A stretch of 64,000 bases of DNA from Owenia fusiformis (Eukaryota > Annelida > Polychaeta > Sabellida > Oweniidae): NCBI GenBank assembly GCA_903813345.2, contig CAIIXF020000002.1, forward strand, positions 15,012,467-15,076,466, written 5' to 3'. Below are positions 58,475 to 64,000 of this stretch, in pieces. The notes under the pieces were generated by a model. That model had not been told where the DNA came from and did not search any database. It was given only the letters and a program-made list of their open reading frames with translations. The first letter of the stretch is position 1. Each line of letters opens with the position of its first letter. A program made the translations under genes and the position numbers.

Positions 58475-61400
58475 TACTAAAGTGAAGCATTGAGTAACTG
58501 TTGAAGTATGATAACCTTAATATTACCTGTATCATCCCTACATCATTAGCACCATCTCCTATTGCAAGTGTGATCATATTAAAGTGAAGCAAGTAACTGT
58601 TGAAGTATGATAACCTTAATATTACCTGTATCATCCCTACATCATTAGCACCATCTCCTATTGCAAGTGTGATCATATTAAAGTGAAGCAAGTAACTGTT
58701 GAAGTATGATAACCTTAATATTACCTGTATCATCCCTACATCATTAGCACCATCTCCTATTGCAAGAGTGATCATATTAAAGTGAAGCAAGTAACTGTTG
58801 AAGTATGATAACCTTAATATTACCTGTATCATCCCTACATCATTAGCACCATCTCCTATTGCAAGAGTGATCATATTAAAGTGAAGCAAGTAACTGTTGA
58901 AGTATGATAACCTTAATATTACCTGTATCATCCCTACATCATTAGCACCATCTCCTATTGCAAGAGTGATCATATTAAAGTGAAGCAAATAACTGTTGAA
59001 GTATGATAACCTTAATATTACCTGTATCATCCCTACATCATTAGCACCATCTCCTATTGCAAGTGTGATCATATTAAAGTGAAGCAAGTAACTGTTGAAG
59101 TATGATAACCTTAATATTACCTGTATCATCCCTACATCATTAGCACCATCTCCTATTGCAAGAGTGATCATATTAAAGTGAAGCAAATAACTGTTGAAGT
59201 ATGATAACCTTAATATTACTTGTATCATCCCTACATCATTAGCACCATCTCCTATTGCAAGTGTGATCATATTAAAGTGAAGCAAGTAACTGTTGAAGTA
59301 TGATAACCTTAATATTACCTGTATCATCCCTACATCATTAGCACCATCTCCTATTGCAAGAGTGATCATATTAAAGTGAAGCAAGTAACTGTTGAAGTAT
59401 GATAACCTTAATATTACCTGTATCATCCCTACATCATTAGCACCATCTCCTATTGCAAGAGTGATCATATTAAAGTGAAGCAAGTAACTGTTGAAGTATG
59501 GTAACCTTAATATTACCTGTATCATCCCTACATCATTAGCACCATCTCCTATTGCAAGTGTGATCATATTAAAGTGAAGCAAGTAACTGTTGAAGTATGA
59601 TAACCTTAATATTACCTGTATCATCCCTACATCATTAGCACCATCTCCTATTGCAAGTGTGATCATATTAAAGTGAAGCAAGTAACTGTTGAAGTATGAT
59701 AACCTTAATATTACCTGTATCATCCCTACATCATTAGCACCATCTCCTATTGCAAGTGTGATCATATTAAAGTGAAGCAAATAACTGTTGAAGTATGATA
59801 ACCTTAATATTACCTGTATCATCCCTACATCATTAGCACCATCTCCTATTGCAAGAGTGATCATATTAAAGTGAAGCAAGTAACTGTTGAAGTATGGTAA
59901 CCTTAATATTACCTGTATCATCCCTACATCATTAGCACCATCTCCTATTGCAAGTGTGATCATATTAAAGTGAAGCAAATAACTGTTGTAACTGTTGAAG
60001 TATGATAACCTTAATATTACCTGTATCATCCCTACATCATTAGCACCATCTCCTATTGCAAGTGTGATCATATTAAAGTGAAGCAAATAACTGTTGAAGT
60101 ATGATAACCTTAATATTACCTGTATCATCCCTACATCATTAGCACCATCTCCTATTGCAAGTGTGATCATATTAAAGTGAAGCAAGTAACTGTTGAAGTA
60201 TGATAACCTTAATATTACCTGTATCATCCCTACATCATTAGCATCATCTCCTATTGCGAGAGTGATCATATTAAAGTGAAGCAAATAACTGTTGAAGTAT
60301 GATAACCTTAATATTACCTGTATCATCCCTACATCATTAGCACCATCTCCTATTGCAAGTGTGATCATATTAAAGTGAAGCAAGTAACTGTTGAAGTATG
60401 ATAACCTTAATATTACCTGTATCATCCCTACATCATTAGCACCATCTCCTATTGCAAGAGTGATCATATTAAAGTGAAGCAAGTAACTGTTGAAGTATGA
60501 TAACCTTAATATTGGCTGTATCATCCCTACATCATTAGCACCATCTCCTATTGCAAGAGTGATCATATTAAAGTGAAGCAAATAACTGTTGAAGTATGAT
60601 AACCTTAATATTACCTGTATCATCCCTACATCATTAGCACCATCTCCTATTGCAAGTGTGATCATATTAAAGTGAAGCAAGTAACTGTTGAAGTATGATA
60701 ACCTTAATATTACCTGTATCATCCCTACATCATTAGCACCATCTCCTATTGCAAGTGTGATCATATTAAAGTGAAGCAAATAACTGTTGAAGTATGATAA
60801 CCTTAATATTACCTGTATCATCCCTACATCATTAGCACCATCTCCTATTGCAAGTGTGATCATATTAAAGTGAAGCAAGTAACTGTTGAAGTATGATAAC
60901 CTTAATATTACCTGTATCATCCCTACATCATTAGCACCATCTCCTATTGCAAGAGTGATCATATTAAAGTGAAGCAAGTAACTGTTGAAGTATGATAACC
61001 TTAATATTACCTGTATCATCCCTACATCATTAGCACCATCTCCTATTGCAAGTGTGATCATATTAAAGTGAAGCAAGTAACTGTTGAAGTATGATAACCT
61101 TAATATTACCTGTATCATCCCTACATCATTAGCACCATCTCCTATTGCAAGAGTGATCATATTAAAGTGAAGCAAGTAACTGTTGAAGTATGATAACCTT
61201 AATATTACCTGTATCATCCCTACATCATTAGCACCATCTCCTATTGCAAGTGTGATCATATTAAAGTGAAGCAAGTAACTGTTGAAGTATGATAACCTTA
61301 ATATTACCTGTATCATCCCTACATCATTAGCACCATCTCCTATTGCGAGAGTGATCATATTAAAGTGAAGCAAATAACTGTTGAAGTATGATAACCTTAA

Positions 61401-64000
61401 TATTACCTGTATCATCCCTACATCATTAGCACCATCTCCTATTGCAAGTGTGATCATATTAAAGTGAAGCAAGTAACTGTTGAAGTATGATAACCTTAAT
61501 ATTACCTGTATCATCCCTACATCATTAGCACCATCTCCTATTGCAAGTGTGATCATATTAAAGTGAAGCAAATAACTGTTGAAGTATGATAACCTTAATA
61601 TTACCTGTATCATCCCTACATCATTAGCACCATCTCCTATTGCAAGTGTGATCATATTAAAGTGAAGCAAATAACTGTTGAAGTATGATAACCTTAATAT
61701 TACCTGTATCATCCCTACATCATTAGCACCATCTCCTATTGCAAGAGTGATCATATTAAAGTGAAGCAAGTAACTGTTGAAGTATGATAACCTTAATATT
61801 ACCTGTATCATCCCTACATCATTAGCACCATCTCCTATTGCAAGTGTGATCATATTAAAGTGAAGCAAATAACTGTTGAAGTATGATAACCTTAATATTA
61901 CCTGTATCATCCCTACATCATTAGCACCATCTCCTATTGCAAGTGTGATCATATTAAAGTGAAGCAAATAACTGTTGAAGTATGATAACCTTAATATTAC
62001 CTGTATCATCCCTACATCATTAGCACCATCTCCTATTGCAAGTGTGATCATATTAAAGTGAACCAAGTAACTGTTGAAGTATGGTAACCTTAATATTACC
62101 TGTATCATCCCTACATCATTAGCACCATCTCCTATTGCGAGAGTGATCATATTAAAGTGAAGCAAGTAACTGTTCAAGTATGATAACCTTAATATTACCT
62201 GTATCATCCCTACATCATTAGCACCATCTCCTATTGCAAGAGTGATCATATTAAAGTGAAGCAAGTAACTGTTGAAGTTTGATAACCTTAATATTACCTG
62301 TATCATCCCTACATCATTAGCACCATCTCCTATTGCAAGAGTGATCATATTAAAGTGAAGCAAGTAACTGTTGAAGTATGATAACCTTAATATTACCTGT
62401 ATCATCCCTACATCATTAGCACCATCTCCTATTGCAAGAGTGATCATATTAAAGTGAAGCAAGTAACTAGCTGTTGAAGTATGATAACCTTAATATTACC
62501 TGTATCATCCCTACATCATTAGCACCATCTCCTATTGCGAGAGTGATCATATTAAAGTGAAGCAAGTAACTGTTGAAGTATGATAACCTTAATATTACCT
62601 GTATCATCCCTACATCATTAGCACCATCTCCTATTGCGAGAGTGATCATATTAAAGTGAAGCAAGTAACTGTTGAAGTATGATAACCTTAATATTACCTG
62701 TATCATCCCTACATCATTAGCACCATCTCCTATTGCAAGTGTGATCATATTAAAGTGAAGCAAGTAACTGTTGAAGTATGATAACCTTAATATTACCTGT
62801 ATCATCCCTACATCATTAGCACCATCTCCTATTGCAAGAGTGATCATATTAAAGTGAAGCAAATAACTGTTGAAGTATGATAACCTTAATATTACCTGTA
62901 TCATCCCTACATCATTAGCACCATCTCCTATTGCAAGAGTGATCATATTAAAGTGAAGCAAATAACTGTTGAAGTATGATAACCTTAATATTACCTGTAT
63001 CATCCCTACATCATTAGCACCATCTCCTATTGCAAGTGTGATCATATTAAAGTGAAGCAAGTAACTGTTGAAGTATGATAACCTTAATATTACCTGTATC
63101 ATCCCTACATCATTAGCACCATCTCCTATTGCAAGTGTGATCATATTAAAGTGAAGCAAATAACTGTTGAAGTATGATAACCTTAATATTACCTGTATCA
63201 TCCCTACATCATTAGCACCATCTCCTATTGCAAGTGTGATCATATTAAAGTGAAGCAAGTAACTGTTGAAGTATGATAACCTTAATATTACCTGTATCAT
63301 CCCTACATCATTAGCCCCATCTCCTATTGCAAGAGTGATCATATTAAAGTGAAGCAAATAACTGTTGAAGTATGATAACCTTAATATTACCTGTATCATC
63401 CCTACATCATTAGCACCATCTCCTATTGCAAGTGTGATCATACTAAAGTGAAGCAAGTAACTGTTGAAGTATGATAACCTTAATATTACCTGTATCATCC
63501 CTACATCATTAGCACCATCTCCTATTGCAAGAGTGATCATATTAAAGTGAAGCAAGTAACTGTTGAAGTATGATAACCTTAATATTACCTGTATCATCCC
63601 TACATCATTAGCACCATCTCCTATTGCAAGAGTGATCATATTAAAGTGAAGCAAGTAACTGTTGAAGTATGATAACCTTAATATTACCTGTATCATCCCT
63701 ACATCATTAGCACCATCTCCTATTGCAAGTGTGATCATATTAAAGTGAAGCAAATAACTGTTGAAGTATGATAACCTTAATATTACCTGTATCATCCCTA
63801 CATCATTAGCACCATCTCCTATTGCAAGTGTGATCATATTAAAGTGAAGCAAATAACTGTTGAAGTATGATAACCTTAATATTACCTGTATCATCCCTAC
63901 ATCATTAGCACCATCTCCTATTGCAAGTGTGATCATATTAAAGTGAAGCAAATAACTGTTGAAGTATGATAACCTTAATATTACCTGTATCATCCCTACA
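58475..64000 (-). repeat. 99-bp tandem array of a P4-ATPase exon end plus 5' splice site, 55 complete units in window
   Basis: Each 99-bp unit reads on the minus strand as the end of the hinge exon (ITLAIGDGANDVGMIQ), a donor CAG/GTAATATT, and about 45 intron-like bases. From 58525 to 63983 the unit is repeated 55 times with only two length changes (9 extra bases near 59985, 4 near 62470). Because 99 is 33 codons and the unit has no stop in this frame, ORFs of 1336 and 508 codons result; they are a property of the repeat, not evidence of a protein. GDGAND is the Mg-binding hinge motif of P-type ATPases. The array continues past the window edge; the full upstream exon is not visible. Confidence 0.95.

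Follow-up and report, generated by a model that had tools for sequence, protein, structure and literature searches.

Tandem arrays of partial exons and their splice sites at exon-intron borders of an ATP8A-type flippase gene in Owenia fusiformis

Tandem repetition at exon-intron borders has been described in a number of settings. In human genes, minisatellite units lie across such borders and affect gene structure (PMC2812944), and intron gain by tandem duplication in potato RdRp (PMC4974935) and in Drosophila (PMC2891723) involves the duplication of sequence across an intron-exon border or of an AGGT segment. The repeats of the polyubiquitin gene UBC are bounded by AG/GT (PMC10809524), and identical donors behind one acceptor have been placed in competition in minigenes, including those of Reed and Maniatis as described in PMC9225289. 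Where donors are identical, minigene and genome data indicate use of the upstream site under exon definition and of the downstream site under intron definition (PMC9225289). Here we describe a 64,000-nucleotide window from the annelid Owenia fusiformis (contig CAIIXF020000002.1, positions 15,012,467 to 15,076,466), in which the end of a flippase exon, its donor splice site and the start of the next intron are repeated in tandem, together with six more arrays of this design in the same gene.

In a search with the C-terminal exons, the product of the host gene showed 100% identity with O. fusiformis protein P0001, a gene model of 1149 amino acids marked partial. The next-best matches were annotated as "phospholipid-transporting ATPase IA" in Mizuhopecten and other spiralians (molluscs and a nemertean), and a Pfam match to PF16212 was present. 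Judged by these matches, the gene is an ATP8A-type P4-ATPase orthologous to phospholipid-transporting ATPase IA, in agreement with the initial annotation of the window, which had called it ATP8A1-like. It is read from the minus strand. The exon to which the array belongs encodes amino acids 722 to 784 and lies beyond the window at 65064-64876 in continued window coordinates (C2:15077530-15077342), and the next true exon, which starts with TAHVGVG and encodes amino acids 785 to 810 of P0001, is at 58148-58225.

Between the two lies array 1, detected by Tandem Repeats Finder at 58474-64000 of the window with a period of 99, 55.7 copies and 97% matches. On the minus strand, each unit consists of 54 bp from the 3' end of the exon (NMITLAIGDGANDVGMIQ), a donor and about 45 bp of intron. 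Cutting the sequence at its donors gave 56 donors and 55 complete units within the window, which agrees with the 55 complete units and one partial unit counted initially. The array continues for 876 bp and nine more donors past the window edge and ends at a single complete exon of 189 nt that has its own acceptor; the full exon had been expected to lie there. The whole array thus has 65 donors and 64 complete units, with CAGGTAATA (CAG/GTAATA) at 63 of the 65 donors and AG/GT at the unit borders. The donor of the exon encoding amino acids 722 to 784 is itself held within the array, while the units lack the first 135 nt and the acceptor of that exon, so that what is repeated is part of the exon rather than the complete exon, unlike in a tandem or mutually exclusive exon duplication, where every copy is complete and has both splice sites. 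The last exon-derived base, ahead of the 3'-most donor, is at 58527 and is followed by true intron; the next exon is 6,650 nt from the first donor and 301 nt from the last.

The units are similar but not uniform. Within the window, 53 of them are 99 bp long and fall into 15 distinct sequences, one has 103 bp (62397-62499; 4 bp longer) and one has 108 bp (59913-60020; 9 bp longer). A CAG/GTAATA donor had been ascribed to every unit, which holds for 54 of the 56 window donors; in the other two, the donor is destroyed (CAG/CCAATA, 60514-60515) or the last exon base is changed (CAA/GTAATA, 59220). No higher-order repeat structure was seen: only lag 18 of the 20 lags stood out, at a level reached by 1.4% of 500 shuffles, and repeated runs of unit types reached a length of four at most, which is ordinary in shuffles. 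The 45-bp intron-derived piece is open to translation, which is equally ordinary, as the same is true of 48% of shuffles and of 45% of the 45-base pieces taken from the window. A probe for array 1 gave at least 65 matches in the genome, and all of those listed were at the ATP8A locus.

Adjoining sequence was fetched and P0001 was mapped exon by exon, which revealed six further arrays on exon borders of this gene (coordinates continue those of the window unless labeled L015). Four are at acceptors: array 2 (69781-71718; 87-bp units, 22 copies) at the exon GYACRLLTSG, array 3 (81448-82913; 67 bp, 21.9 copies) at DNVIYDRLSK, array 4 (97241-98391; 99 bp, 11.6 copies) at DEAALVKGAC, and array 7 (L015:2631-4080; 69 bp, 20.8 copies) at the exon DYQPMGKIPASET. 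The remaining two are at donors, namely, those of the exons ending in DEDIIYQASSP (array 5, 98575-101027; 136 bp, 18 copies) and VRFIQAIFINW (array 6, 103178-103581; 133 bp, 3 copies, 99% matches). In each case part of an exon, its splice site and the intron sequence next to it make up the unit, and the array has the complete exon at its outer end. Arrays 5 and 4 occupy the donor side and the acceptor side of one and the same intron, and P0001 joins the outermost sites. The consensus periods of arrays 1 to 7 are 99, 87, 67, 99, 136, 133 and 69; because three of the seven are not multiples of 3, the border arrays of ATP8A follow no reading-frame rule. At the break of array 6, the 5-bp word CAACT is common to exon and intron, as we would expect of a microhomology-mediated duplication; the breaks of the other arrays are less clear.

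Four other Owenia genes were found to carry border arrays, giving 11 arrays in five genes, 6 at donors and 5 at acceptors. A C2H2 zinc-finger exon has a donor array of 119-bp units (8.8 copies, 99% matches), in which the intron part of the unit matches the flanking intron over its first bases only, and a P4-ATPase paralogue has a donor array of 31-bp units in 3.8 copies. In a kinesin gene, 18 copies of a 159-bp unit include an acceptor; only the upstream end of this array was seen and not the complete exon. These copies were recognized by eye among the 144 kinesin matches listed, of which 18 form one array with steps of 158 to 159 bp. The fifth gene lies on the opposite strand, upstream of the mapped ATP8A exons by about 23 kb, and has a donor array of 55-bp units in two blocks of 10.0 and 5.3 copies, separated by about 580 bp of other sequence that is probably an inserted element. 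We take this gene to be EXOSC9-like; Pfam found nothing in its 54-amino-acid piece. At 2 to 4 kb past the array in this gene, on the same strand, a 78-bp, 7-copy array (L017:8883-9429) is open as a 26-residue repeat (KPQANSRSATIAKHIGT...).

The excess of arrays on exon borders was assessed with a placement test in which the founding units were dropped randomly over the ATP8A gene (86.9 kb, 36 exons, two L015 exons having approximate borders). Arrays were counted from a period of at least 40 and at least 2.5 copies. Of the 14 arrays in the gene, seven include a border, where random placement predicts 0.93 (P = 1e-5). All seven of the arrays with at least 90% matches are on an exon border, where 0.41 would be expected. 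Excluding array 1, through which the locus was discovered, left 6 of 13 on a border against 0.87 expected (P = 9.4e-5), and an earlier run, in which array 7 was not yet known, had given 6 of 13 (P = 4.5e-5).

The public gene model gives the most direct view of what becomes of array 1. P0001 contains one GDGAND motif and joins the full exon directly to the TAHVGVG exon, with no repeat kept. The initial annotation had preferred a scheme in which the first donor is used and the rest of the array is intron, and both this single motif and the recovery of the full exon support it; array 1 is best read, as far as the predicted product tells, as intron behind the first donor. An alternative would be that several donors are spliced, so that some flippases gain extra blocks of 33 residues with further GDGAND motifs. 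The unit length is a multiple of 3, and 24 extra units are open in read-through; the identical nine bases of 63 of the 65 donors match the U1 consensus at 7 of 9 positions, in a gene whose 11 other listed donors have 5 to 7 of 9 (one border set a base or so off), and the logic of intron definition would favor the 3'-most donor (PMC9225289). Starting at the first base of the full exon, read-through is nevertheless open for only 865 residues with 25 motif copies and reaches a stop after the frameshift in the 103-bp unit, so that in-frame use is confined to at most 24 extra units, i.e., the first 25 donors. The earlier expectation that any choice of donor would keep the frame therefore fails past that point. 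Of 241 proteins compared, 238 had one GDGAND, 2 had two, and 1, the read-through open reading frame of this analysis, had 39. In a separate search with about three units of the read-through peptide (7,980 scored candidates of 740 to 2,354 amino acids), the intron-derived peptide was in no protein among the best 120 of 147 matches (best E value, 0.27). The in-frame repeats of a catalytic motif envisaged initially find no support in P0001 or in the proteins listed; the periods of three of the seven arrays are not multiples of 3, and a second copy of a P-domain motif would probably spoil the fold. We regard splicing from several donors as very unlikely, and a repeat-containing protein was rejected as the main interpretation on account of the frameshift after unit 24, the single copy in P0001 and the periods that are not confined to multiples of 3. 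A second possibility leaves the mature mRNA the same and concerns only its making: AG/GT sites of dual specificity could allow the array to be removed stepwise in whole units, with the last donor spliced to the next exon only afterwards. The units do run from GT to AG and end in AG/GT, whole-unit removal would restore the same junction, and human UBC employs a tandem array of dual-specific sites (PMC10809524). The AG at the unit end, however, has 4 pyrimidines in the 15 upstream positions against 8 to 13 at the 11 ATP8A acceptors examined, and the acceptor-type arrays need no such mechanism; stepwise removal is accordingly improbable in our estimation. Mini-exons of 70 nt inside the units were also considered. 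An AG at unit position 29, 70 nt before the donor, has 9 of 15 pyrimidines, which is within the range of true acceptors, and the intron closest to such an exon would measure 29 nt, or 128 nt with one unit skipped. The acceptor context is compatible in itself, but such exons would shift the frame and none is present in P0001, which makes them unlikely.

It might be argued that the array is an assembly error, and if this is the published assembly, it was built from noisy PacBio reads, so that the copy numbers of long arrays may be off. The units have private variants, with two different length variants among them; the read N50 of 25.75 to 30.75 kb (PMC9977687) compares with an array of 6.4 kb; and the EXOSC9-like array is interrupted by other sequence while the same design recurs in five genes. 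As far as sequence alone can tell, the array is real, and we give the artifact explanation hardly any credence. A more serious contender is that there is no hotspot at all: arrays would form everywhere, and ATP8A would be a chance cluster or a tolerant gene. A within-gene P value of about 1e-5 to 1e-4 and four more genes of the same design in a small sample speak against this, and we consider it doubtful, if well worth keeping in mind. Several points nonetheless weigh against our own interpretation. The border excess rests on one gene, the only one studied in full, which was picked because of its array and analyzed with thresholds that we chose ourselves. In 17 arbitrarily placed 10-kb chunks of the genome, of which the zinc-finger exon occupies one, a border position was shown for only one of the five young arrays (at least 90% matches), and the other four were not shown to touch an exon. 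By eye, there was no evenly spaced exon array among the 92 myosin-head or the 83 ABC-membrane matches listed from scored candidates, although such domain match lists are able to show only arrays with a long exon part. P0001 is a partial gene model, and minor isoforms may exist. Finally, of the six exon sites that vary in array 1, four are synonymous (P = 0.022 to 0.030, from few sites with shared ancestry), an excess that would be unexpected in neutral intron and argues weakly against that status; selection on the repeated codons was set aside, as only six variable sites with shared ancestry bear on it. For the Owenia genome annotation in general, RNA-seq support has been given for 99.29% of filtered transcripts (PMC9977687).

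Taking these observations together, we propose the following course of events. A short tandem duplication would have fused intron sequence, at about 45 bp past the donor, to exon sequence, at 54 bp from the exon end, and expansion to 64 units presumably followed through unequal exchange or slippage. The full 189-nt exon, which alone among the copies has the acceptor of this exon, would be recognized by exon definition and would use its own donor, and the 64 repeated donors would be removed within the 6,650-nt intron. Most likely the mRNA is unaffected because only the complete exon carries both of its own splice sites, and exon definition would in this way render border duplications nearly harmless; the long intron and the annotated product at array 1 fit an exon-centric rule. 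In the Owenia genome, and in ATP8A above all, exon borders may be preferred sites for the formation or keeping of short tandem duplications; that they are favored there, beyond being tolerated, is our inference. We hold this explanation as a whole, from border duplication and expansion to tolerance through exon definition and border preference, to be probable. A stronger version is offered tentatively and with somewhat less than even confidence: in Owenia, exon-intron borders could be mutational hotspots at which short tandem duplications arise. A process tied to the border would time and again copy splice junctions into arrays, some reaching dozens of units, at donors and acceptors alike; exon definition would shield the mRNA, and introns would lengthen as they took up further copies of the splice sites that bound them. 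Candidates for such a process would be co-transcriptional splicing, R-loops and a border-associated chromatin step.

Among the known systems, those most similar in kind are the human border repeats, intron gain through tandem duplication, and dual-specific arrays. The human repeats average 30 bp in four copies, lie in genes within segmental duplications and alter transcripts (PMC2812944), whereas the Owenia units are 31 to 159 bp long in up to 64 copies, with seven arrays in one gene and no use visible in the public protein. The AG/GT of the intron gain models (PMC4974935, PMC2891723) is present at the unit borders here also (63 of 65 donors), but P0001 shows no new intron position and it is an existing intron that swallows the copies. 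UBC repeats are coding monomers (PMC10809524), while an Owenia unit is part exon and part intron, and the minigenes set two donors in a construct (PMC9225289) against 65 in a natural gene. The passages available from these papers contain no case with seven arrays in a gene or with dozens of part-exon, part-intron copies. Nor did we find a report of border repeats of this number, size and clustering, although exon-border tandem repeats as such are known, for example, in humans; literature searches found nothing on border arrays in Owenia among the papers listed, and in the Owenia genome paper (PMC9977687) a keyword scan of the main text likewise found nothing on them. The annotated intron (64875-58226) has 6,650 nt, which is not a multiple of 99, so that it does not comprise a whole number of units as an array of the UBC kind would. 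The period of ubiquitin repeats is a multiple of 3, as is that of array 1.

Downstream of the array, the minus-strand exons of the ATP8A gene continue with an exon encoding 37 amino acids (57592-57702), followed by two exons of 75 bp and 25 amino acids each, exon A (56963-57037), which is absent from P0001, and exon B (56154-56228), which is present in it. Exons A and B have equal phase and peptides that are 72% identical, and it is likely that they are mutually exclusive and that each encodes a version of one flippase membrane segment. The remaining 3' exons, encoding amino acids 873 to 1149 through the stop codon, are spread over 39481-55562. A Ty3-type retrotransposon at 43946-48994 lies within an ATP8A intron on the same strand as the gene and has an uninterrupted open reading frame of 1,682 amino acids with reverse transcriptase, RNase H, integrase and SCAN domains (Pfam).

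Other repeats were noted in passing. The window contains large repeated blocks of about 2.6 to 3.3 kb each at 5269-20289, with inner 162-bp, 96-bp, 16-bp and AATAC arrays, and, by eye only, retroelement-like open reading frames at 1-3650 (reverse-transcriptase-like, minus strand) and at 23488-27796 (endonuclease and reverse-transcriptase-like, plus strand). Elsewhere, at C9:37986009-37994334, one myosin-head segment (positions about 18 to 84) is matched twelve times at irregular spacing; a muscle myosin gene with alternative exons is the probable source. The 285-bp repeats at L032:3422-5065, each seen by eye to hold a thrombospondin type-1-like exon and then GTATGT, may be an ordinary domain duplication.

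Border arrays of this kind would be liable to mislead gene prediction as well as the mapping of splice junctions from short reads. If they are real and unused, they constitute a natural competition of dozens of near-identical splice sites within one gene: 65 donors in one ATP8A intron, and 18 donors against 11 or 12 acceptors in another. The site of the complete exon would then be the sole winner, which would provide, for an invertebrate, a direct test of exon versus intron definition. Should tandem duplication indeed favor borders, the process would be a new source of intron growth and would supply raw material for new introns.

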